DNA of 64,000 nt from Heterotrichella gracilis (lineage: Eukaryota > Sar > Xanthophyceae > Tribonematales > Xanthonemataceae). Within the stretch, counting starts at the first letter, position 1. Each line of letters begins with the position of its first letter. The translations under genes were made by a program, and so were the position numbers. The notes under the pieces were generated by a model that was given only the letters and a program-made list of their open reading frames with translations, did no database searches and had not been told where the DNA came from. Location of the stretch: contig JAULBX010022186.1 in assembly GCA_032358255.1 (NCBI GenBank), positions 62,001 through 126,000 on the forward strand, written 5' to 3'. Below are positions 10,569 through 33,139 of the stretch, piece by piece.

Positions 10569-10592
10569 TTTTTATGGTCCATCTATAATTTT

Positions 10593-10720
10593 GTGCATAA
10601 CGTTTTGTGGCTTTTAGTCGTTGGCGTTTAAAACACTCAACTGTCTTTAACCACAAATGGTTTTTTAAAGATACAAAATTTATAGAACTTCGTCTTTGAC
10701 AGCTACTGGTGGGTACTTTT
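10593..10720 (-). repeat. Relic attC-like recombination site (left part well preserved)
   Basis: The left core GTGCATAACGTTTTGTGGC, followed by GTTGGCGTTTAAAACACTCA and then ACAAATGGTTTTTTAAAGAT, closely matches the left half of the cassette-array hairpin at 26912-27100 (same order, same spacing). The right half is weak; only a rough CTACTGGTGGGTAC remains. It lies upstream of the CDF gene, in the 217-bp gap between two minus-strand genes. Confidence 0.6.
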
Positions 10721-24312: not shown

Positions 24313-24446
24313 CGTGCTAACGGTTTCGGGCTTTGTTTTCGGGTGGGTTTCGGAGCACAAAGTTTCAATTTATAACTAAAGTTTATTTGAAGCACAAAGC
24401 TTTAAGTTTGCACGTCAGCCCACTAACGCAAAACCCGTGTTAGCGG
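24313..24446 (-). repeat. attC-like hairpin 1 (distal end of array)
   Basis: Left core and arm GTGCTAACGGTTTCGGG pair with right arm CCCGTGTTAGC. A left-arm inner segment CACAAAGTTTCAATTTATAA and the right inner segment CACAAAGCTTTAAGTTTGCA add partial pairing. It is the most divergent site, 134 bp long, and closes the array 128 bp from the TonB receptor gene. It belongs to the GNAT cassette. Confidence 0.7.
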
Positions 24447-24462
24447 TTCGTTGTTTTCTTGC

Positions 24463-25008
24463 CTATAGTTTGCATATCATTACATTTCTTCTTGTCCCTG
24501 CCTTTTTCAAAAAAGTGAAATCAACTTTTTCGAATGTCTTTACAAATCCCATAAACCTATAACTTGGAGAGTCTGGGTCGACAGGATAAGCCTCCAGATA
24601 TTTAGCCCCATTTTTTTTCGCGTATTTTTTTGCATTCTCAATTAGTAGGTCTATTAGCCCCATATCTCTAAATTCTTTCTTTATGTAAAAACAGGCAATC
24701 GACCAAACATTTTCAAAACTCTCATCACCGCCAAGTCTTTGATATGTTTCTCTTGGCGCAACAGAACACCAGGCAATTGGCTCACTATTCATATATGCCA
24801 AAAGTCCGATTGGTGTTTTATCCATTACTCGCTGTTGAATGAACTTCTTTCTATTGGCCGAAGTGTTTTCTTTTAACTCTTCCTTTGTCATACGCCAAGC
24901 CATACACCAACAGTAGCTGGGTCCACCTTGTGACTGAAAGAGTGCTTCAAAGTCGGCCCAGTTTCTTTTGTCGACCGGTTTTATTTTTATGTTTTTAAGT
25001 GACGTCAT
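24463..25008 (-). CDS. GNAT-family N-acetyltransferase (cassette 9)
   Basis: This is an acetyl-CoA-dependent acetyltransferase fold, 181 aa. Motif A is visible in VWSIACFYIKKEFRDMGLID, followed by LLIENAKKYAKKNGAKYLEA, and the QSQGGPSYCWCMAWRMTKEE stretch near the N-terminus is characteristic of a GNAT subgroup common in cassettes and soil bacteria. The acceptor is unknown; members of the fold can modify antibiotics, proteins or metabolites. It is the last cassette, with hairpins on both sides. Confidence 0.88.
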   Translation of the reverse strand: MTSLKNIKIKPVDKRNWADFEALFQSQGGPSYCWCMAWRMTKEELKENTSANRKKFIQQRVMDKTPIGLLAYMNSEPIAWCSVAPRETYQRLGGDESFENVWSIACFYIKKEFRDMGLIDLLIENAKKYAKKNGAKYLEAYPVDPDSPSYRFMGFVKTFEKVDFTFLKKAGTRRNVMICKL

Positions 25009-25016
25009 AAATGACC

Positions 25017-25239
25017 GCTAACGTTTTGCGGCCTTGACCAGTGAGGCTTGTGAAACAGTCAAACTGTCTACAACTGCAAACTTAAATTAAAAGTACAAAT
25101 GTTTTACTGCAAAGCCAAATGGGCAAAGTCCGGTGGACTTTGAGCCAGCCTGTGCGAGGCTTAAGTACAATCGGCCGGACAAAAATTAGCTTTGTGATGC
25201 GCCGAAAAGCCGCATTGCGCCATGGCTTGCTGTTATAAC
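25017..25239 (-). repeat. attC-like hairpin 2 (long class)
   Basis: The 223-bp site has left core GCTAACGTTTTGCGGCC and right core GGCTTGCTGTTATAACC. The inner stem is GCAAAGCCAA (25109-25118) with TTAGCTTTGT (25186-25195). A second inner stem AAAGTCC/GGACTTT (25125-25141) covaries with AAAGTGC/GCACTTT in the next site. The left arm fits hairpin 6 better than its own right arm, suggesting it is a hybrid of two sites. Confidence 0.75.
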
Positions 25240-25276
25240 CTAGGCCGCCACACACAGTTTATTTTTGCTGTCCTTG

Positions 25277-26143
25277 TCAATATATTGCGAACCCGAGCGT
25301 AATGCCATATCGAGTGTCCGTACCGTATTTATTGATAAAATTTGTATTGACCATTTTGTCAAAACGCATACTGTCGAAGGTCGCATTTTTTAACTTAATT
25401 TGTTCGCAATAAAAACCGACAGTAATAAATTGCCAGAAGTCTACGGGATCAAGATCTCCGAGATTAACATTTCCCTTGCGAAAAAATGTCGCAGGTTTGA
25501 TCTTAATTTCAATTGCGTAAATGTTGCTGAAGTCAAGAAGAATATTTTCCCGTTCACCGTCTTTTAGGTATTTATTTCCATAGGTCCCGAAAATGGGATA
25601 ACCGCGATAGCCTTTTTTTACACAAATCATTACCCCGCCATACTTTTGAGGAAATGGAGAAAACATAACACCATAATCACCATAATAATTTCCCCAAAAA
25701 CCGTGGCGAGTAACACTATTGATGGCGTCTTTTACCGTATACGCTCTCGCAGAGTCAGCTTGATCGCTGTATGTTGTGATGAAACTATTATTGAAATCAT
25801 TAATAAATTCATTTGAAAGTCTTTGTTGTGTGAAGCCTTTTATACCTTTAATGTCAGCGAAGAGACCTAGTACAAATTTGTTAGAAAAAAAGCGGGCTAA
25901 ATTAATTCCAATTGAGGGATGCATTCCTCCGGTCCTAAAAGTTTTGCCCCATGGAGAAGGAGAATATAAATACTGCCAACCAATTGTCAGCATAGTTGCT
26001 TGTCCGTTATCTCCAGGCTCAGATAGGAACTTGAAATATTTATGCTGGTCTATAAATGACGTGGTGTCGCTCTGCGTGTCCTGTCCGAACGAACTGAGTA
26101 CAAGAGACGAAAGAAATATTATAATGATGAATTGTCTTTTCAT
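25277..26143 (-). CDS. Hypothetical secreted protein, 288 aa (cassette 8)
   Basis: A signal peptide (MKRQFIIIIFLSSLVLSSFG) is followed by a beta-rich mature protein with patterns of an outer-membrane barrel (TMLTIGWQYLYSPSPWGKTF, GGMHPSIGINLARFFSNKFV, KYGTDTRYGITLGFAIY at the end with a terminal aromatic). I recognise no family. It is flanked by hairpins, so it is a single-gene cassette. Its last strand suggests integration into the outer membrane, but that is inference. Confidence 0.7.
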   Translation of the reverse strand: MKRQFIIIIFLSSLVLSSFGQDTQSDTTSFIDQHKYFKFLSEPGDNGQATMLTIGWQYLYSPSPWGKTFRTGGMHPSIGINLARFFSNKFVLGLFADIKGIKGFTQQRLSNEFINDFNNSFITTYSDQADSARAYTVKDAINSVTRHGFWGNYYGDYGVMFSPFPQKYGGVMICVKKGYRGYPIFGTYGNKYLKDGERENILLDFSNIYAIEIKIKPATFFRKGNVNLGDLDPVDFWQFITVGFYCEQIKLKNATFDSMRFDKMVNTNFINKYGTDTRYGITLGFAIY

Positions 26144-26163
26144 TCCGATGTACTGGCGGCTTA

Positions 26164-26377
26164 GTTATAACGTTTGGCAAGCTTGCGCTTGCGGCTAATG
26201 AAACATTGTCTGCCGAAACGTTTTTTTAAAGATATGTGTTTTTTAGTCTTTTGCAAAATGGGCAAAGTGCAGTGCACTTTGAGCCAGCTGTTGCGAGGCT
26301 TTACCGGAAAAGCGACCTTGAATTTGCAAAAGCCTTGCACGTCCGCCCGCATTGCGCCATGGCTTGCTGTTATAGGC
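26164..26377 (-). repeat. attC-like hairpin 3 (long class)
   Basis: Left arm GTTATAACGTTTGGCAAGC pairs with GGCTTGCTGTTATAGGC. Inner stem CTTTTGCAAA (26248-26257) pairs with TTTGCAAAAG (26323-26332), replacing the GCAAAGCCAA/TTGGCTTTGC stem of other sites. AAAGTGC (26264-26270) pairs with GCACTTT (26274-26280). It lies 3' of the gene at 26424. Confidence 0.8.
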
Positions 26378-26385
26378 AGTAAGCG

Positions 26386-26421
26386 CCACACAGGTTCGAC
26401 ACGTTTACGTGTCCGCCTGTG
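26386..26421. repeat. Conserved cassette-end palindrome
   Basis: CACACAGGTTCGACACG and CGTGTCCGCCTGTG form an imperfect hairpin between the attC-like site and the stop codon of the gene at 26424. Closely similar versions occur at 28627-28660 and 31382-31415, and a trace at 30700. Shorter CACACAG remains at other sites. No T-run follows, so it is not an ordinary terminator. Confidence 0.6.
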
Positions 26422-26423
26422 CC

Positions 26424-26864
26424 TTATTTTAGGCGTGGATTGAAATATGTAATAATGTCTTTATGAGTTTTGCAGTTATTTATTTCTTTCGATATTTCGT
26501 CTACTGTGTCTAATGCTGCCCAGGCTTTTGGTTTTCTTGAGACAGTCTCTATTATTAGTTTTTTGAAGTCGTCGAGTGAAATACTTTGTACTTCACCGTC
26601 TAGGTTTGGCAATACTTCTTTTACAGGTGAAAAATATTTTATACTTGTCCAAAGCTTAATTTTACCAACTGGTTCAACATTTTTTATCTTAAGCAAAGTC
26701 CCCTTTGCATCAATGATTATTATGCCCTTATAAGCTTTGCTTTCAAGTCCTGAAGTACAGAAAAGGAAATTTTCAGATCTAGCATCGATTTCACTCCTTT
26801 TAATGTCGATGTAAATTGTCGGAGAAGTTAAGGTCTGTCGTATTTTTTCTGAAGTCAAAGTCAT
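26424..26864 (-). CDS. Hypothetical protein, 146 aa (cassette 7)
   Basis: I do not recognise this protein. It has no signal peptide. The first half is beta-rich (TIYIDIKRSEIDARSENFLF, YKGIIIIDAKGTLLKIKNV) and the second half is helical (ISLDDFKKLIIETVSRKPKA, TVDEISKEINNCKTHKDIIT), which is a plausible single soluble domain. Flanking hairpins mark it as a cassette. Confidence 0.65.
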   Translation of the reverse strand: MTLTSEKIRQTLTSPTIYIDIKRSEIDARSENFLFCTSGLESKAYKGIIIIDAKGTLLKIKNVEPVGKIKLWTSIKYFSPVKEVLPNLDGEVQSISLDDFKKLIIETVSRKPKAWAALDTVDEISKEINNCKTHKDIITYFNPRLK

Positions 26865-26911
26865 TTTGTCTGCCGAATGTTTTTTGTCTTACGGAATCGT
26901 CCGCGCTTATT

Positions 26912-27100
26912 GCCTATAACGTTTGGCGGCTACCAGTAGTTGGCGTTTGGAACACTCAACTGTCTATACCCACAAATGTTTATTTAAAGATACAAATGTT
27001 TGTTAGCAAAGCCAAACGAAAATAAAAGTCTGCGAAGCAGGCAATAAATTGGCTTTGCGGTGACCACGTCCGCGCCAATTACTGGTAGGTGCTGTTATGT
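26912..27100 (-). repeat. attC-like hairpin 4 (long class)
   Basis: Left arm GGCTACCAGTAGTTGGCG (after GCCTATAACGTTT) pairs with right arm CGCCAATTACTGGTAGGTGC, then the core TGTTATG. The inner stem is GCAAAGCCAA with TTGGCTTTGC. The outer stem sequence is unrelated to its neighbours, yet still pairs. Its left half is the closest relative of the relic at 10593. Confidence 0.8.
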
Positions 27101-27120
27101 TTTGCCAGCCGCACACAGTT

Positions 27121-28449
27121 TTATTCGTTTCTGCTTGAGTGTTCAATTCTGCCGTCCTCGTAATAAGTTATTATTTCTTTGATGTCGCCTTTTGAATTTG
27201 AAATAAATTCAACTGTAAACGAGTCATTACCGAGAAGTCGCATTTTATTTTCTGTCATTGAAACTAAAGGGAATTTTGTCCTGCCAACTCTTTCGTAATA
27301 CAGATTATTACCTGAGAAAGAAATGTCAATATAACTATATGTCCCTATTCGTTTTTTAAGTTTGAGGGAGTCTATTTGCGGTGGATTATTTTTTGCTTTT
27401 AAAAGTTCAAGTTGCCATTTCAAATAATTTCTTTCACTAGAGTCTTTTGCGAATTTAAAATAACTTTCAAATATTTTTACTTCGGCAACTTCTAGCGCTT
27501 TGGCTGCCGTTGTTTTTATGTCAGGCGAAATACCAACACCTTCCCAATTTGTTTTCGTTGTTCTAGAATATGCTTTACCGTGTGGCAAAGCGATAATAAA
27601 ATCATTATAAAGAAATGATTTTGGTGCATTATGAGCGCCGCCCCTTGTTTGTTCACCTACAATGGTGACTCTTTTTTCAGTTTTGAGAAAATAGGTTAAC
27701 ATTTCAGCAGCAGAAAATGTCTTATAACTAGTCAAGATATATAGAGGCGTTTCATAGAGACCAGTATAATTTGGATCGGGCTCGCAATATAAATTATAAT
27801 TTTTTTCACGATTGCGAAGCGTTAATTCAAACATATGTTTCCTTTCTTTTATAAAATGCTTAGCAATACAGGCAACCATTTCGGGCTGTCCGCCCATACC
27901 ATAACGCAGGTCGATAATTATTGCTTTGCAATTTGAAAGAGTTTGAAATGAAGCGTCGGCAACTTTTTCAGATTCAGGATTTAAATAAGCAAAATAGCTA
28001 ATGTCAACATAGCCAATATTGCCATTTAAAACTTCTATTTTTTTAAATCCGTGATTTTTAGATCTGTCAAGTTTTAATTGCTTAGCCCAATAAACGGAAT
28101 CCCGAGGCAAACTTAATTCCAGAGATAAGTTAGGATTATATTCAATATAAAAGTGTTCGTCATTGTGTACGCTTAAAACGTCTTTAGTTAAAATGTCGGC
28201 AAGAATGCTTGGGTTTGTAATTTTGTTGTAAAGTCCTTCTTTGTATTTTTTATTAATAAATGCACTCATTTCAGTCCCTTTGTCTGGAAGCACATAATTG
28301 TGTTCAAGTTTAAAGGTAAGGGTGTCAATAATTTCGTTTAGATTTTTTTGATTAAGAATTAATGAGGTATTTGTCTGTGAACTTAAGCTTAATAAGAATA
28401 TGATTTGAAAAACGAAAAAGAGTCGGAGCGTTTTTAACTGAATTGTCAT
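27121..28449 (-). CDS. S41-family (C-terminal processing/tricorn-like) peptidase (cassette 6)
   Basis: This is an exported serine peptidase of 442 aa: a signal peptide (MTIQLKTLRLFFVFQIIFLL, cleaved near SLSSQ), an N-terminal helical cap, and the S41 catalytic core starting GNIGYVDISYFAYL with AIIIDLRYGMGG. The nucleophile is in KTFSAAEML, followed by VGEQTRGG. The Lys of CtpA-type enzymes is replaced here, so it may be of the Ser-His subgroup. The C-terminal 100 residues (FSGNNLYYERVGRTKFPLV) form an extra beta domain. It is the largest cassette. Confidence 0.85.
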   Translation of the reverse strand: MTIQLKTLRLFFVFQIIFLLSLSSQTNTSLILNQKNLNEIIDTLTFKLEHNYVLPDKGTEMSAFINKKYKEGLYNKITNPSILADILTKDVLSVHNDEHFYIEYNPNLSLELSLPRDSVYWAKQLKLDRSKNHGFKKIEVLNGNIGYVDISYFAYLNPESEKVADASFQTLSNCKAIIIDLRYGMGGQPEMVACIAKHFIKERKHMFELTLRNREKNYNLYCEPDPNYTGLYETPLYILTSYKTFSAAEMLTYFLKTEKRVTIVGEQTRGGAHNAPKSFLYNDFIIALPHGKAYSRTTKTNWEGVGISPDIKTTAAKALEVAEVKIFESYFKFAKDSSERNYLKWQLELLKAKNNPPQIDSLKLKKRIGTYSYIDISFSGNNLYYERVGRTKFPLVSMTENKMRLLGNDSFTVEFISNSKGDIKEIITYYEDGRIEHSSRNE

Positions 28450-28517
28450 AGAATTTATTAAATGAATGTCGTCATATTTTAGTAGAATGTCTTTACCGGT
28501 CTACGTCCGGCTGGTTG

Positions 28518-28616
28518 AACATAACGTATAGCGAATTTGCGCCGTTTTTTGCTTGTCCAAGTTATGCATTTGAGCGTTAACACGCAAAAAATGGACGCGA
28601 GTTTGCTGTTATAGCG
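28518..28616 (-). repeat. attC-like hairpin 5 (short class)
   Basis: The 99-bp site has left core AACATAACG, and left arm AGCGAATTTGCGCCGTTTTT pairs with AAAATGGACGCGAGTTTGCT, then TGTTATAGCG. The loop holds CAAGTTATGCATTTGAGCG. The short class shares the loop with 31273-31372 and with relics at 12640 and 19113. Confidence 0.8.
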
Positions 28617-28626
28617 TCGTTGCCGA

Positions 28627-28660
28627 CACACAGGTGCCACACGCTTAAGTGTCCGCCTGC
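28627..28660. repeat. Conserved cassette-end palindrome
   Basis: CACACAGGTGCCACACG and CTTAAGTGTCCGCCTG form the same imperfect hairpin as at 26386, directly before the stop codon of the gene at 28665. The loop differs while the arms are kept. Confidence 0.6.
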
Positions 28661-28664
28661 GAAA

Positions 28665-29135
28665 TTATTTTTTGAATTGCTCAAGTAGTAAAATGGAATT
28701 GTCTTGTGATAAAGTAAAATTAACAGCCCATTTAAAGTCTGTGTCGAAAACAATAAGAATAGTGTCACCGCCTTGTTCCGCTCTGTCTTGATCGAGATAA
28801 GTAGTGATAAAACTTAACCAGTCACCGTCAAGATTTAAATGGCCTATACCAATATATTCGTTGAGTGCTTGGTCAATTACGTTTATTCTATACCAGAGCG
28901 GTCTGTCGTCCGGATGTTTGTAAAAGGTTTGAATGAATTTAATTATAGATTTTGCCTCGCTGTCTAAAAGGTTTCGGTCGAAAAGAGTGGGGCTGTCAAG
29001 GTTTGCTTTTACAATTGCCTCGTCAGTTTTTGTCCCGAGTTTAGTTAGGTCGATACCGCAATGATCAACAATGAAATTTGTCTGGATGAAGTTGTCGTAG
29101 TGTCCGAACGAATTTATGTTTCTTATTTCTGTCAT
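28665..29135 (-). CDS. Hypothetical protein, 156 aa (cassette 5)
   Basis: This is an unrecognised soluble protein. It is acidic with a histidine-containing start (MTEIRNINSFGHYDNFIQTN) and ends with beta strands (GGDTILIVFDTDFKWAVNFT) that look like an interaction module. No signal peptide is present. It is flanked by hairpins 5 and 6, hence a cassette. The fold could be of the SMI1/immunity type, but I see no decisive motif. Confidence 0.6.
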   Translation of the reverse strand: MTEIRNINSFGHYDNFIQTNFIVDHCGIDLTKLGTKTDEAIVKANLDSPTLFDRNLLDSEAKSIIKFIQTFYKHPDDRPLWYRINVIDQALNEYIGIGHLNLDGDWLSFITTYLDQDRAEQGGDTILIVFDTDFKWAVNFTLSQDNSILLLEQFKK

Positions 29136-29166
29136 GTTGTCTTACGGAACGTCTATCCTCGGTAAT

Positions 29167-29359
29167 GCGCTATAACGTTTTGCGGCCTTGCCCAGTGCGG
29201 ATTTTGAAACCGTCAAACTGTCTACAACCTAAAACTTAAATTAAAAGTACAAATGTTTTTTAGCAAAGCCAAATGAAAAAAAATTCCGGTGTCGACCGGA
29301 CAATAACTTGGCTTTGCGACCACCCGTCAACCCGCATTGGGCAAGACCGCTGTTAGCAG
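29167..29359 (-). repeat. attC-like hairpin 6 (long class)
   Basis: Left arm GCGGCCTTGCCCAGTGCGG pairs with CCGCATTGGGCAAGACCGC, flanked by cores CTATAACG and TGTTAGC. The inner stem is GCAAAGCCAA (29263-29272) with TTGGCTTTGC (29308-29317). The tip is TCCGGT/ACCGGA (29285-29300). This is the best-paired site. Confidence 0.85.
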
Positions 29360-29417
29360 TAGTTAATTCGCCCAAAGTTTAAACCCAGTTTAAGTGTCTG
29401 CTGATAAATAATTGTCA

Positions 29418-29834
29418 TTAATTGATTACTGGAAGAGAGTCCCAACCTGTTATTTTAAAATGCGTCATTGTATCTGGAACAATTTTGTCAAAAAGTATTT
29501 CGCAAATATCAGGGTCGTCTGGATAAAACTTAATAAAAAATCTGTGTTCAATTTTATATTTCTGTTTGTCCCCTTGAGTTAATGCAAACGAAGGTCTATA
29601 AGTTGAATTATTTACAAAAAAATAAACGTCTGCCATTTCACCGCCGTCAGCTGGCCAAACAAATTTTTTTAAAAACCCGATTGTATATTTATGTTTTGAT
29701 TCCAGTTTTTTGTCCCGAATATTTTGTCTATAAGTAAAGAACCAAATTGTCACGCCGAAAACTAATATAGTAACATATAATGCAACTTTTTTGTCTGCTC
29801 GAGAAGTTTTTTCTTCAATCATGTCTGTCCGCAT
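29418..29834 (-). CDS. Hypothetical membrane-anchored protein, 138 aa (cassette 4)
   Basis: One hydrophobic helix (KVALYVTILVFGVTIWFFTY) near the N-terminus, preceded by a short polar tail, anchors a soluble beta-rich domain (KYTIGFLKKFVWPADGGEMA, EHRFFIKFYPDDPDICEILF). I recognise no family; topology suggests an exported C-terminus. It is flanked by hairpins 6 and 7. Confidence 0.65.
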   Translation of the reverse strand: MRTDMIEEKTSRADKKVALYVTILVFGVTIWFFTYRQNIRDKKLESKHKYTIGFLKKFVWPADGGEMADVYFFVNNSTYRPSFALTQGDKQKYKIEHRFFIKFYPDDPDICEILFDKIVPDTMTHFKITGWDSLPVIN

Positions 29835-29842
29835 TAATTACT

Positions 29843-30032
29843 GCTAACGTTTGGCAAGCTTGCGCTTGCGGCTTATGAAACTTCCTGTGTCTGCCCGCCG
29901 AAACGTTTATTAAATGTACAAATGTTTATTAGCAAAGCAAAATGAAAAAAAGAATCTGGCGTCGGCCAGGCAAAAAATTTGCTTTGCGATGCGCCGAAAA
30001 CCCGCATTGCGCAATTGCTTGCTGTTATAGGC
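29843..30032 (-). repeat. attC-like hairpin 7 (long class)
   Basis: Left arm GGCAAGCTTGCGCTTGCGG pairs with CCGCATTGCGCAATTGCTTG, then CTGTTATAGGC. The inner stem GCAAAGCAAA (29932-29941) pairs with TTTGCTTTGC (29978-29987), a compensated variant of hairpin 6. The tip is CTGGC/GCCAG, again compensated. Confidence 0.85.
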
Positions 30033-30080
30033 AGTAAACTCGCACCAAGATTAAACACAGTCTGCGTGTCTGCTTATAAA

Positions 30081-30479
30081 TTAGTCTAAAAACCAATATA
30101 AAGCTGTCAAGGGATTATTACTGTCGAGAGAGTTTGTCGGTGAAGAGAAAAAATATAAAGCAAAAAATAGAACGTAACAACCTGATAAGGTCAGAGTAAT
30201 TGTCCAACTGAATTCTTTCTTTTTGATAAATCTTAAATAAATGAAATAAAAAATTATTATAGGGCTTATAAGAATAGTCAATGTATATGTTGTCAAAATG
30301 ATAGGTTCGAGAAATTGATATATTGAGCCGAGATATTTTGGATCGCGAAAATTTAGAGGGTAATTGTCGGGTGCGCTTAAAACATGTTTTAATTCTATTA
30401 ACCATAAGACATAAAGAGAAGCAAGGAAAATTATCACCGGAAGTCCAAAAGTCGAAAGTATCTTATCGTTTCTTGTCAT
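30081..30479 (-). CDS. Small polytopic membrane protein, 132 aa (cassette 3)
   Basis: Three hydrophobic helices are visible (LPVIIFLASLYVLWLIEL, ILTTYTLTILISPIIIFYFI, WTITLTLSGCYVLFFALYFF). No family is recognised. The short loops and lack of charge motifs fit a small inner-membrane protein, not a transporter with a clear pore. It is flanked by hairpins 7 and 8. Confidence 0.65.
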   Translation of the reverse strand: MTRNDKILSTFGLPVIIFLASLYVLWLIELKHVLSAPDNYPLNFRDPKYLGSIYQFLEPIILTTYTLTILISPIIIFYFIYLRFIKKKEFSWTITLTLSGCYVLFFALYFFSSPTNSLDSNNPLTALYWFLD

Positions 30480-30511
30480 TGGAAATACAACGTAGTTCGT
30501 CCGAGTTTATT

Positions 30512-30690
30512 GCCTATAACGTTTTGCAAGCAGGCGCATGCGGGTTTATGAAACACTGTCTGCCGAAACGTTAATTTAAAGATACATGTTTCTTAGTCTT
30601 TTGCAAAATGAAAATGTCTGTCCGCGAAGCGACCTTAAATTTGCAAAAGCCTTATTCGTCTGCCCGCTTGCGCTTGCTTGCTGTTATGCA
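30512..30690 (-). repeat. attC-like hairpin 8 (long class)
   Basis: Left GCCTATAACGTTTTGCAAGC, then AGGCGCATGCGGG, pairs with CCCGCTTGCGCTTGCTTGC, then TGTTATGC. The inner stem CTTTTGCAAA/TTTGCAAAAG is as in hairpin 3. The site is 179 bp. Confidence 0.8.
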
Positions 30691-30696
30691 CTGGCT

Positions 30697-31248
30697 TTAC
30701 CACACTGGGCGATACGATGACGCGTCGGTAGTAATTTGTTTTAAGTACTTTCTTTTGTATAAGCCTTCCATGTCTGCTAAAATAGTGTCGCCATTAAAAC
30801 TAAATTTTATTGTGAACTTACCATAAGTATTACTATCTGTTTCTAATCGAGTAAATACATCTCCTAATATTTCACCTTCCTTTAAATAAAAAACTCCTCG
30901 CCATCCATTGTATGCTGGGTCTAGTTTTTGATTATTTGCTATATTACTATTAGGTAGATAAAATAAATTAAAGTATCCGTTTCCGTAAAATTTGTATACA
31001 CCAATTTTATTTCTCATGTAGGGACGCTTTTTGTTATCAATAATTTCGTCACTTTCAACCCTTATTTCTTTGTAGATTACAGCAGTGTCAATGCTTTTTA
31101 GAATGGTTTTGTCAAAGTAAATTTTGTTTTTATAAAACTTAGCGTCTTTTGGAACCATTACTCGCCCGTCGCCCAATGTCATAACATGTATGCAGTTAGT
31201 CAATAAGAAAGTAAATACTAAAATTATAGATCTTTTAATAAAGGTCAT
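30697..31248 (-). CDS. Hypothetical lipoprotein, 183 aa (cassette 2)
   Basis: A lipoprotein signal (MTFIKRSIILVFTFLLTNCI) with lipobox LLTNC places the protein in the envelope. The mature part is beta-rich (GVYKFYGNGYFNLFYLPN, WRGVFYLKEGEILGDVFTRL, YGKFTIKFSFNGDTILADME), reminiscent of small lipocalin-like beta barrels, but no family is certain. The 3' end contains a remnant of the cassette-end palindrome. Confidence 0.7.
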   Translation of the reverse strand: MTFIKRSIILVFTFLLTNCIHVMTLGDGRVMVPKDAKFYKNKIYFDKTILKSIDTAVIYKEIRVESDEIIDNKKRPYMRNKIGVYKFYGNGYFNLFYLPNSNIANNQKLDPAYNGWRGVFYLKEGEILGDVFTRLETDSNTYGKFTIKFSFNGDTILADMEGLYKRKYLKQITTDASSYRPVW

Positions 31249-31272
31249 TTGTCTGAGAGTCTTTTAAAGCTT

Positions 31273-31372
31273 GTGCATAACGTTTGGCGGCTAGGCGTCC
31301 GTTTTTGCTAAGTCCAATTTACGCATTTGAGCGCTAACCCGCAAAAATGGCGCTTAAGCCGCTGTTATAAAC
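31273..31372 (-). repeat. attC-like hairpin 9 (short class)
   Basis: Left core GTGCATAACG; arm GGCGGCTAGGCGTCCGTTTT pairs with AAAATGGCGCTTAAGCCGC, then TGTTATAA. The loop CATTTGAGCGCTAACCCGC is shared with other short sites. It belongs to the cassette nearest to the recombinase. Confidence 0.8.
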
Positions 31373-31381
31373 AGTAGCGGG

Positions 31382-31415
31382 CACACAGGTGCGATACGCT
31401 CACGTGTCCGCTTGA
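31382..31415. repeat. Conserved cassette-end palindrome
   Basis: CACACAGGTGCGATACG with CTCACGTGTCCGCTTG is the third good copy of the cassette-end element. It overlaps the stop codon of the gene at 31400, so it is part of the coding end here. Confidence 0.55.
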
Positions 31416-31885
31416 TACTGATTACTATATTTTTTGTGGTATTTAATTAGGTCATTAAGAAACTCTGTTGTCTTACATTTTATTGCATTATGAGGAATTT
31501 GAATAACAGTGTCGGTGTCATTAAGGATGATGGCTGAATGTCCACCAAACGCATTTTTTCCTTTGTTTCGTCTATAAGTTATTTCTTTTATCTCCGTCCA
31601 TTTAAAAGTCCGTTTATTTATGTTGTCAATAAGCTCGTCTTTACGTATTATAACAGCAGGTCGATTTATGATAACAGAATATAAGAAGTTAACATACCTT
31701 GGTAAGGAAACAACAAACATAAAAACTAATACTGCAGCGAATAATATCGAAAGTCCGATGTTGTCATGATATGAAGCCACCATTAGTGTCGTAAAAATAA
31801 TAGTGAATACCAAAAGTAAAAGAGTCGCGAATGTCAATGATTTTTTTGAGAAGAAATATTCAATATTTAACTGTGTCTTTGTCAT
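31400..31885 (-). CDS. STM3941-like membrane protein (cassette 1, next to recombinase)
   Basis: Two membrane helices (SLTFATLLLLVFTIIFTTLM and IGLSILFAAVLVFMFVVSL) are followed by a PH-like domain with the pattern RPAVIIRKDELIDNINKRTF, then KWTEIKEITYRRNK, typical of the STM3941/YcxB-like group. The biological role of that group is not established. As the first cassette after the recombinase it would be the most recent insertion in a classical integron. Confidence 0.75.
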   Translation of the reverse strand: MTKTQLNIEYFFSKKSLTFATLLLLVFTIIFTTLMVASYHDNIGLSILFAAVLVFMFVVSLPRYVNFLYSVIINRPAVIIRKDELIDNINKRTFKWTEIKEITYRRNKGKNAFGGHSAIILNDTDTVIQIPHNAIKCKTTEFLNDLIKYHKKYSNQYQADT

Positions 31886-31902
31886 ACGAAATGTCAGTCT
31901 CG

Positions 31903-31990
31903 CTATTGGTTATAACTTCCTTATAGGGGTGACTTTATGGCTCCAATCTGGTAAATTTTGCAAGATTGGGGTGACAAACTCACCCTTTTC
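31903..31990 (-). other. Candidate primary integration site (attI-like)
   Basis: Between the first cassette and the recombinase stop there is a single core GGTTATAACTTCC (31908-31920) without a hairpin partner. It is followed by an inverted repeat CCAATCT/AGATTGG (31943-31969, 13-bp centre), which looks like a tyrosine-recombinase binding site, and by direct repeats GGGGTGAC at 31926 and 31968 with an inverted CACCC at 31981. A simple double-strand site of this type is what an attI needs. Use by the recombinase is inferred. Confidence 0.55.
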
Positions 31991-32014
31991 GGATTATTAA
32001 ATATAACTATTTTA

Positions 32015-33139
32015 TTACAAGGTATCAAAAGGAGATACTACTTTTTGAATACTTTTATTGCTTACATGTGTATAAATTTCAGTCGTTGTACTCCTGCTAT
32101 GACCTAAAATTTCCTGAATATATCTTAGGTCAGTTCCATTTTCCAACAAATGAGTGGCATAACTGTGTCTTAACCAATGTAAAGTTACCGGCTTGTTTAT
32201 ACCACTTTTTTCAAGCGCCTGTTTAAGTACGTTAGCCAAACTTCTTTCGTCATATTGTCCTATACCATTCTGCCCCTCAAATAAAAATTCTTTAGGCTTA
32301 TAAGCTGTATAATAATCCCTAAGCATTTGTAACACCTTCATCGAAAGTGGAACTATTCTATCTTTTTTTCCTTTGGCCTGCCTTATCATTACCAATCCAC
32401 GGTTTGAGTCAATATCTTTTAATTTTAAATTCAACAGCTCACTCCGTCTCAATCCGCAACTATAAATTAAACTCAACATGGTTTTGTGTTTGATGTTCTT
32501 TTGCGCCGTTAAGATCAACTTAATTTCTTCTTTGCTTAATACGTTAGGTAAAACTAGTGCTCTTTTTGGCCGGTGAACCAATTCGGTTTCCATGTTTTTC
32601 GATTCTATTGTTCTAAAGAAAAGTTTCACAGCATTTACTACCTGATTTTGATACGATGACGAGAACTTGTTTTTTAAAATGTATTCATTATTAAAAATAA
32701 TTACATCGTTATTATTTATTTCAGAAACCGTTTTGTGAGCATAAAAGCGTAAAAATCTTCTTAATGCATCTGTATATGTGCCAATAGTGCTAATGCTGTA
32801 GCGCTTAGAGCGCATCCAGTTCTCAAACTCTTTTACTTTTTTCTGCGTTTCTTCGCTTAATTCGGTTAGCGCGTTTGAAGGCCGTAATTCTTTATGTGTT
32901 TTTGATTTTTCAACTTCTTTAAGACCATCTTTAAACAAAATACTATTGCCTTCGTTCAATAATTTGCAAACTTCGTTTATAAGCTGCTGGCTGTAGGGTA
33001 ACAACCAGGCCTTTTGAGTATAACTCCACCGTGCGCCAGTAAATTTCCTTAGTTGATTTGATATAATTGTGTCATACTTAAATTTAACCGCAATACACTC
33101 TTTATCATTATGCCATAGTCTTTCTAATGTTATTTCCAT
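32015..33139 (-). CDS. Tyrosine site-specific recombinase (integron-integrase-like role, Xer-like sequence)
   Basis: This is a 374-aa tyrosine recombinase with a core-binding domain (about 95-185) and a catalytic domain (about 200-374). Catalytic residues are visible: Arg231 in SCGLRRSELL, Lys256/258 in AKGKKDR, His321 and Arg324 in LHWLRHSYATH, His347 in LGHSRSTTTE, nucleophile Tyr356 in IYTHV. The first 60 residues (GARWSYTQKAWLLPYS) are an extra small domain. The distance Arg231-His321 is 90 residues, as in XerD and not as in IntI, which has an insertion there. It lies 60 bp downstream of the MBL gene in the same direction and may be read from that operon. Confidence 0.93.
   Translation of the reverse strand: MEITLERLWHNDKECIAVKFKYDTIISNQLRKFTGARWSYTQKAWLLPYSQQLINEVCKLLNEGNSILFKDGLKEVEKSKTHKELRPSNALTELSEETQKKVKEFENWMRSKRYSISTIGTYTDALRRFLRFYAHKTVSEINNNDVIIFNNEYILKNKFSSSYQNQVVNAVKLFFRTIESKNMETELVHRPKRALVLPNVLSKEEIKLILTAQKNIKHKTMLSLIYSCGLRRSELLNLKLKDIDSNRGLVMIRQAKGKKDRIVPLSMKVLQMLRDYYTAYKPKEFLFEGQNGIGQYDERSLANVLKQALEKSGINKPVTLHWLRHSYATHLLENGTDLRYIQEILGHSRSTTTEIYTHVSNKSIQKVVSPFDTL

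Follow-up and report, generated by a model that had tools for sequence, protein, structure and literature searches.

A cassette array on a Bacteroidota contig points to an integron lineage separate from IntI

Can an array of single-gene cassettes be an integron when the recombinase at its head is not an IntI? The question is raised by a 64,000-nucleotide (nt) stretch of DNA, here called the window (C222:62001-126000), from an assembly deposited as Heterotrichella gracilis (GCA_032358255.1). The minus strand of the window carries, at 24314-33139, an integrase gene, an attI-like site and nine single-gene cassettes, each closing with an attC-like hairpin. We consider it very probable that this element is an integron in the functional sense, with an integrase, an attI and mobile single-gene cassettes, and that its integrase belongs to a Bacteroidota tyrosine recombinase lineage separate from IntI. 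Judged from its sequence, it is an integron by anatomy, yet not an IntI integron, and a separate, overlooked integron lineage is our best reading. An initial annotation, which had placed nine minus-strand genes leading to a tyrosine recombinase at 24313-33139, was accurate, as the open reading frames (ORFs) and hairpins were located there. Since the assembly comprises 68.5 Mb in 903 contigs, far above a bacterial genome, we take C222 to be a bacterial contig in a eukaryote-like or mixed assembly. The contig is Bacteroidota DNA, probably from a companion of a sequenced eukaryote or from a mixed assembly. One copy of the integrase was found in the assembly.

Each cassette carries its own matching ends

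The integrase gene (32015-33139, minus strand like all features of the element) encodes a tyrosine recombinase of 374 residues, identified by its ORF, by family and PDB comparison, by alignment and by tree. The nine genes lie downstream of it in the same direction, the reversed layout that had been noted from the letters alone, and a hairpin of approximately 98-225 nt stands 3' of each. In the window, the hairpins are bounded by a left core ending in TAAC and a right core CGTTA, which supply the R'' (AAC) and R' (GTT) boxes of an attC, and the ninth ends at 24314. Cassette 1 starts at G 31916, 99 nt past the integrase stop codon, and is preceded by TATAAGGAA.

For each cassette, the first 25 nt past the crossover were set against the reverse complement of the 25 nt that precede its own left core. 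In these own pairs, 156 of 225 positions agree, compared to a permuted mean of 95.6 (standard deviation 10.1), and the true pairing of starts and ends alone reaches 156 among 362,880 permutations. With the common GTTA omitted, own pairs match at 120 of 189 positions versus 59.6 on permutation, and the true pairing is again 1 of 362,880. In 9/9 cases the agreement is poorer between the ends that adjoin in the array than between own ends. The bases beyond TAAC/GTTA differ from cassette to cassette and agree inside one cassette, so that the constant core bases claimed initially hold for TAAC/GTTA and not for the bases that follow. The matching ends in the window are thus read, from sequence, as the trace left by circles entering at G^TTA. 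One attC-like hairpin per gene, always 3' of it, had also been claimed, and it is present in nine of nine cases, beyond chance by own-cassette complementarity, by covariance model matches and by two-arm comparison (below).

A genome scan for the integrase gave 80 loci, in which we searched for cassette starts by terminal complementarity alone, with no attC consensus. A candidate start lies at most 200 nt behind the integrase in 32/70 loci, compared to 6.6 on average and 13 at most in shuffled sequence. Walking onward from these starts yielded arrays in 30/80 loci with 71 sites, of which seven were struck out by eye (L007_3, L026_7, L036_3, L040_1, L040_4, L058_1 and L058_2), leaving 29 loci and 64 sites; some of those retained are also doubtful (e.g. 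L037_1, L063_1, L068_1, L073_1-3). Hairpins are therefore present beside homologous recombinases in other genomes, where their absence would have spoken against an array of cassettes. Walked sites are most often 138 nt long, 20 nt of which is flank. In 60 of the 64 cassettes the longest ORF runs in the integrase direction; the median cassette is 856 nt long with a median coding share of 0.90.

Sites and integrase occur together across the phylum

Covariance model R1 was built from 45 sites, 44 from other genomes and site 9 of the window, and at E ≤ 0.01 it matches seven of the nine window sites, six of these outside its training set. A canonical attC model, R2, was built from 27 sites of six loci in one phylum sample and run on 25 sources. 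The two models hardly cross-match among these sources: R2 gives 35 matches on canonical loci, one weak match (24.6 bits, L045) on other window-type loci and none in the window at E ≤ 0.1, and R1 reaches at most 29.7 bits on the canonical loci.

The phylum sample consists of 296 genomes, with 11 candidates scored per genome for R1, 6 for the integrase profile and 7 for the IntI model TIGR02249; genomes were counted as rows, and kinship among rows was ignored in the statistics. R1 sites are found in 150/296 genomes, the integrase profile at E ≤ 1e-60 in 98/296 and TIGR02249 over its cut-off in 84/296. The integrase and R1 sites co-occur (85 genomes with both, 13 with the integrase alone, 65 with R1 alone and 133 with neither; p 2.7e-19), R1 sites being present in 85/98 integrase-positive versus 65/198 integrase-negative genomes. 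IntI and R1 sites show no association (36 with both, 48 with IntI alone, 114 with R1 alone and 98 with neither; p 0.095). Integrase-positive genomes contribute 120 of the 150 best-scoring sites listed, and 53 of the 150 lie at most 45 kb from an integrase on the same contig. These 53 comprise 48 that are 3' on its strand, four that are 5' on the opposite strand and one placed otherwise.

The array begins at an attI-like site (31913-31976) that ends in TATAAGGAA|GTTA, with the putative crossover at G 31916. The sequence common to relatives is TATAaacAA|GTT. We aligned 33 rows, comprising the loci whose start falls 40-130 nt behind the integrase and six further rows added manually; each of the four TATA positions is retained in 30-31 of them, and the final A ahead of the core in 30. 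The GTT core, as judged by sequence and by the homology breakpoint described below, closes the attI beside the integrase, approximately 90-110 nt behind the gene in most loci.

These data bear on the possibility that the array is moved by another recombinase, either XerCD of the host, in the manner of pdif modules, or a distant IntI, and that the adjoining integrase is a bystander. The 65 genomes with sites and no matching integrase would fit such a scheme, as would the presence in the window's assembly of another recombinase, 34% identical, at C331. Set against this, the sites co-occur strongly with this integrase and not with IntI, 48 of the 53 near sites are 3' on the integrase strand, and the attI-like site lies at a rather constant distance past the integrase stop. 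Furthermore, a dif site is short, unlike the hairpins of approximately 118 nt found here. We therefore regard a bystander integrase as highly improbable, and the association points to the window integrase as the acting enzyme.

The integrase lies outside the IntI clade and lacks the IntI segment

The window protein matches TIGR02249 in two pieces with 210.3 bits, below the family cut-off of 265, and 0/11 genomes with a window-type integrase pass that cut-off. Comparisons with Pfam, NCBIfam and the PDB place the enzyme among simple Xer-like recombinases. Its best PDB match is XerA (5hxy), which likewise has no long insertion. IntI4 is also among the best sequence and fold matches in the PDB, aligning in two pieces with the intervening part missing. 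The cut-off of NCBIfam NF040815 is exceeded by 0.9 bits; this is a broad naming model (site-specific tyrosine recombinase/integron integrase, also recomb_XerA_Arch) that does not set the window lineage apart.

We aligned the window protein with 73 relatives, 21 IntI and 8 Xer proteins; 23 locus identifiers were omitted, of which seven were fragments among the 80 relatives and the rest second gene copies or fusions. The IntI-specific segment in the patch III region is held to be essential in known integrons and to serve hairpin recombination. This region spans 24 residues in the window protein, 23-24 in 73/73 relatives, 65 in 21/21 IntI and 27-31 in Xer, and the insertion is thus missing, as the initial annotation had stated. 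In a tree of 103 rows, the window protein and 60 relatives form a 100/100 clade that includes 30 of the 31 rows labelled array-bearing (30 loci and the window, labels set by hand). The IntI rows (21, all from the phylum sample) and the eight Bacteroidota Xer rows each form a separate 100/100 clade apart from it; XerA is absent from the tree. The window family, in contrast to the Xer proteins, has cassette arrays associated with it.

Were the element a canonical integron whose IntI had diverged, this would explain the two-piece TIGR02249 match of 210 bits, the rank of IntI4 among the sequence and fold matches, and a cassette logic that is the same. However, neither the window protein nor any of the 11 genomes passes the cut-off, the segment is short in every relative and long in every IntI, the two clades are separate with full support, and R2 finds no site in the window. 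This makes a diverged IntI quite improbable. The separate cassette-capturing lineage that had been suggested is supported, with a recombinase outside the IntI clade and without its segment.

Several relatives share the integrase region up to the first GTTA and differ beyond it

In Litoribacter ruber and L. populi, collinearity runs past the integrase (90% identical over this region) and ends with base four of the first cassette, i.e. at the end of GTTA. Beyond this point they differ, with 9.9 kb and seven R1 sites in L. ruber versus 1.7 kb and one site in L. populi, and the flanks past the arrays run parallel again at 87%. Gene order is thus not fixed across relatives, an outcome that fits the cassette array first proposed.

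We compared eleven pairs of loci for the point at which homology ends. This lies at most 4 nt from the start of the first cassette in L026/L047, L038/L039 and L021/L044, and also between the window and L008, which were compared separately. L038/L039, which are 98% identical, stop at the same base as the Litoribacter pair, L021/L044 stop within GTTA, and the window and L008 stop at 31913, which is base four of cassette 1. In L048/L049 and L065/L066 homology stops 11 nt past the cassette start, and contig L057 ends approximately 4 nt past a start. The remaining five pairs (L023/L058, L060/L062, L037/L062, L032/L050 and L069/L071) are uninformative, as either a contig breaks off or homology is lost at or within the integrase. 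With L003 or L004 the window shares 81-85% identity across the 4 kb that end at the integrase stop, and only pieces of attC beyond it. These differences are between relatives, as distinct from strains of the window's own species. Contigs end at most 400 nt behind the integrase in 16/80 loci and at most 400 nt before it in 2/80; breaks behind the integrase are what variable or repetitive arrays would be expected to cause.

The sites re-pair to position 15 and are predicted to fold as single strands

Position 11 of the cassette is A in 73/73 cassettes (64 from the loci and nine from the window), and the facing base is G on the reverse complement in 58/73, i.e. C on the same strand. Re-pairing then resumes at positions 12-15, with fractions of 0.89-0.75. 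The 64 locus cassettes were chosen by seven exact bases and at least 11-12/20 matches, which inflates their match rates at positions 8-20, and no such threshold was applied to the nine window cassettes or to a control set, drawn from the phylum sample described above, of 27 cassettes adjacent to canonical IntI genes. In the control set, which contains near-copies (L124), pairing falls from 0.89 at position 10 to 0.67 at 11 and 0.41 at 12; the comparison at positions 12-15 is biased in favour of our reading. Position 11 = A was not a selection criterion; it is found in 2/27 of the canonical cassettes, and near attI in 29/29 candidates versus 419/1151 in shuffled sequence. On the bottom strand, the A facing C becomes T facing G.

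Inside the paired ends lies a long L-stem. Compared locally, the two arms place its start 1 nt after the left core and its end 5 nt before the right core in six of the nine window sites, and sites 5 (0 and 4 nt) and 6 (5 and 9 nt) retain the 4-nt asymmetry. Across 45 aligned sites, 86.9% of the L-stem cells are paired, and 18/18 pairs show compensatory changes in both partners. The score for covariation, 0.654 versus 0.169 in shuffled alignments and at most 0.108 with partners slid, is somewhat favoured in that the structure was taken from the tested alignment itself.

Folding energies were compared for circle and array forms of the 73 cassettes. Mean z in the circle form is -5.30 for the bottom strand (72/73 below -2) and -3.72 for the top strand; in the array form the values are -2.66 and -1.78. 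The circle form is more stable than the array form in 72/73 cases, and the bottom strand is the more stable in 67/73 circle forms and 53/73 array forms. Bottom-strand preference is seen in 61, 62 and 63 of the 73 with 7, 10 and 11 nt of the R box, respectively, compared to 46 without any R box. These counts indicate that most of the strand bias comes from the R box and not from position 11 alone. The energies are compatible with, and do not prove, a folded bottom strand as the predicted substrate.

Two further alternatives can be weighed here. If the hairpins were terminators or REP-like repeats between ordinary genes, their position 3' of each gene and their good folding would be accounted for. 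In contrast, the complementarity joins the two ends of one cassette, the circle forms are almost always the more stable, and homology between relatives breaks at GTTA, which makes this reading barely conceivable. Cassettes could also be exchanged on double-stranded DNA, with no folded single strands involved. Here, the single-stranded substrate is a prediction from folding, and the enzyme is without the segment held to serve hairpin recombination, both of which favour this scheme. Against it stand the compensatory changes in the L-stem, which argue for selection on the folded strand, and the greater stability of the bottom strand in 67 circle forms. On balance, we consider exchange on double-stranded DNA unlikely.

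A proposed cassette cycle and its relation to known integrons

Returning to an integron with its own integrase lineage, we propose the following cycle. A free circular cassette would contain one attC, its two ends pairing over approximately 9 bp, with an A facing C at position 11 and then approximately 4 bp more, followed by a short asymmetric spacer (1 nt versus approximately 5 nt) and the long L-stem. The integrase would recombine this circle at G^TTA with the attI-like site approximately 90-110 nt behind its own gene in most loci. Insertion at attI would leave the newest cassette beside the integrase, with its gene oriented like the integrase, and push earlier ones away; attC × attC recombination would remove cassettes.

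Several observations weigh against this interpretation. Recombination was not observed, and the activity of the integrase is a proposal drawn from association. Walking gave arrays in just 30 of the 80 loci (29 after removal of doubtful sites), and 56 of the 80 contigs are cut downstream. R1 sites occur in 65 genomes with no integrase match at E ≤ 1e-60, 13 genomes match the integrase and have no R1 sites, and 97 of the 150 listed sites lack an integrase within 45 kb on their own contig. Within the window, sites 5 and 7 have no R1 match even at E ≤ 1, and the local two-arm comparison found no such L-stem in site 8. The strand bias is partly present without R boxes (46/73), and position 11 barely shifts it (mean difference -3.26 to -3.35 kcal/mol). 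Finally, the plasmid NZ_CP094530 carries an integrase, an attI-like sequence and a VOC gene with no R1 match.

The element shares with sedentary chromosomal IntI integrons an integrase, attI, single-gene cassettes, an attC hairpin 3' of the gene, a GTT core, terminal complementarity (also seen in the canonical control) and variable arrays. It differs from them in the clade of its integrase, the absence of the IntI segment, an N-terminal extension (below), and sites with A at position 11, re-pairing to position 15 and a spacer of 1 versus 5 nt. The layout is not where the novelty lies: same-direction integrons are known in Treponema, where the integrase is transcribed toward attI in the same direction as the cassettes and the enzyme is reported as IntI (PMC3607928), and some members of our family show the customary divergent layout. 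Treponema thus has the layout of the window with an IntI, which the window lacks.

Bacteroidota appear in reviews among the phyla with integrons (PMC8618304, PMC9668308), and intI was already recorded from the Bacteroidetes/Chlorobi group in an early survey (PMC2426708). A set of 11 taxon-specific attC models does not include the phylum (PMC8352920), IntI-based surveys describe integrons as rare in Bacteroidetes, and IntegronFinder 2.0 names one complete Bacteroidetes integron, in Salinibacter ruber (PMC9024848). Canonical IntI itself is not rare in our phylum sample (the 84/296 genomes above). The literature that we searched contained no description of this integrase/cassette lineage. If it is confirmed, a large reservoir of mobile genes has escaped notice, and the need for the IntI insertion in recombining folded single strands becomes testable.

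A wider proposal can be drawn from these comparisons. Integrons may not be one IntI-defined lineage; a second, older or parallel one, widespread in Bacteroidota and reaching Ignavibacteria and Balneolota, would capture folded-strand cassettes without the IntI insertion. In its main clade, an added HARP/XPB-like N-terminal domain would accompany the relocation of attI and array to a place 3' of the integrase, and the position-11 A with its facing C would mark the lineage and may help choose the strand. Taken jointly, we put this forward tentatively, at a little less than an even chance.

The N-terminal domain and variation in layout

The initial annotation had rightly assigned an extra N-terminal domain to the recombinase. 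It covers residues 1-70 (32930-33139), and its predicted fold, of good confidence, has the order b-b-a-b-b-a-b and is weakly HARP/XPB-like. The first Foldseek matches are the XPB helicase and SMARCAL1 HARP (5tnu and 4o66, both E 0.2), and the HARP/XPB-DRD fold comparison by VIA-align gave two tied rows. Pfam HARP matches 3/28 members (best E 0.0011) and DUF5710 13/28 (best E 0.0005), with no match of either in the window protein. The domain may help to read the folded junction.

In the window's clade the array lies behind (3' of) the integrase. The arrangement of ordinary integrons, with R1 sites 5' of the integrase and on the opposite strand, is seen in Ignavibacteria (L076, L077 and L081), Aureitalea (L071), Balneola (L078) and L080, a Bacteroidetes contig with an integrase fragment. 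An N-terminal extension of at least 55 residues is present in 31/33 loci with 3' arrays and in 1/5 with 5' arrays, that one unrelated-looking. Both lists were made by hand and omit L006, L050 and L068 (sites 3', same strand) and L080 (sites 5', other strand, integrase fragment). Since L048 has an array without the extension, it is not needed by all members.

A Chryseobacterium plasmid (NZ_CP041688) carries a 54% identical integrase, annotated as "site-specific tyrosine recombinase/integron integrase", and behind it are four full-length R1 sites scoring 43.5-106.6 bits. On Klebsiella, Aeromonas and Acinetobacter plasmids, we found recombinases 48-50% identical over residues 126- or 138-374 of the window enzyme, which are perhaps IS91 transposase partners, as at L136:10942-12884. 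In two close relatives of the window, phage-antirepressor-like genes (by eye) lie between the integrase and the attI-like site (L003:11112-11684, ORF6N-like; L005:11153-11977, BRO-like). Two contigs with a Bacteroidota-type integrase bear other names, L060 (titled Kuenenia, 93.5% identical to L062 over 8.7 kb) and L053 (Desulfobulbus), and misbinning is likely. In a Bacillota sample, R1 matches occur in 6/149 genomes at up to 59.6 bits. These are weak matches (G347, G348, G356, G402, G426 and G433), with more than one in five of the six genomes, and are possibly other attC arrays.

Gene content of the window array

From the integrase outward, cassette 1 (31281-31915; gene 31400-31885) encodes a weakly STM3941-like protein (34.6 bits, under the cut-off of 40) and closes with a short-class site (31274-31371; R1 40.5 bits). 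The product of cassette 2 (30520-31280; gene 30697-31248; site 30513-30690, 42.6 bits) has no Pfam or NCBIfam match at E ≤ 0.1, and that of cassette 3 (29848-30519; gene 30081-30479; site 29841-30031, 21.6 bits) is by eye a small membrane protein. No family match was obtained for cassettes 4 (29176-29847; gene 29418-29834; site 29169-29359, 54.4 bits), 5 (28525-29175; gene 28665-29135; short-class site 28518-28615) and 7 (26171-26919; gene 26424-26864; site 26164-26376), the sites of the latter two being recognized by terminal complementarity. Cassette 6 (26920-28524; gene 27121-28449; site 26913-27101, 53.3 bits) encodes a member of the S41 peptidase family. Cassette 8 (25022-26170; gene 25277-26143) encodes what by eye is an exported protein, without a family match. 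Its site (25015-25239) has halves of two types and is matched by R1 in its right part only (25013-25139, 20.8 bits). It is apparently chimeric: 28 nt of the left half are identical to site 7 and the right half is site-4-like, and a similar mix is seen by eye at L045:16028-16165. Cassette 9 (24321-25021; gene 24463-25008) encodes a GNAT acetyltransferase, and its site (24314-24446), similar to the Algoriphagus site L045:11775-11912, scores 99.8 bits but is in the training set. Far from the array, an isolated attC-like site (10592-10717, minus strand; R1 35.1 bits, E 3.6e-6) is flanked by genes that by eye are AraC-like and cation-efflux-like.

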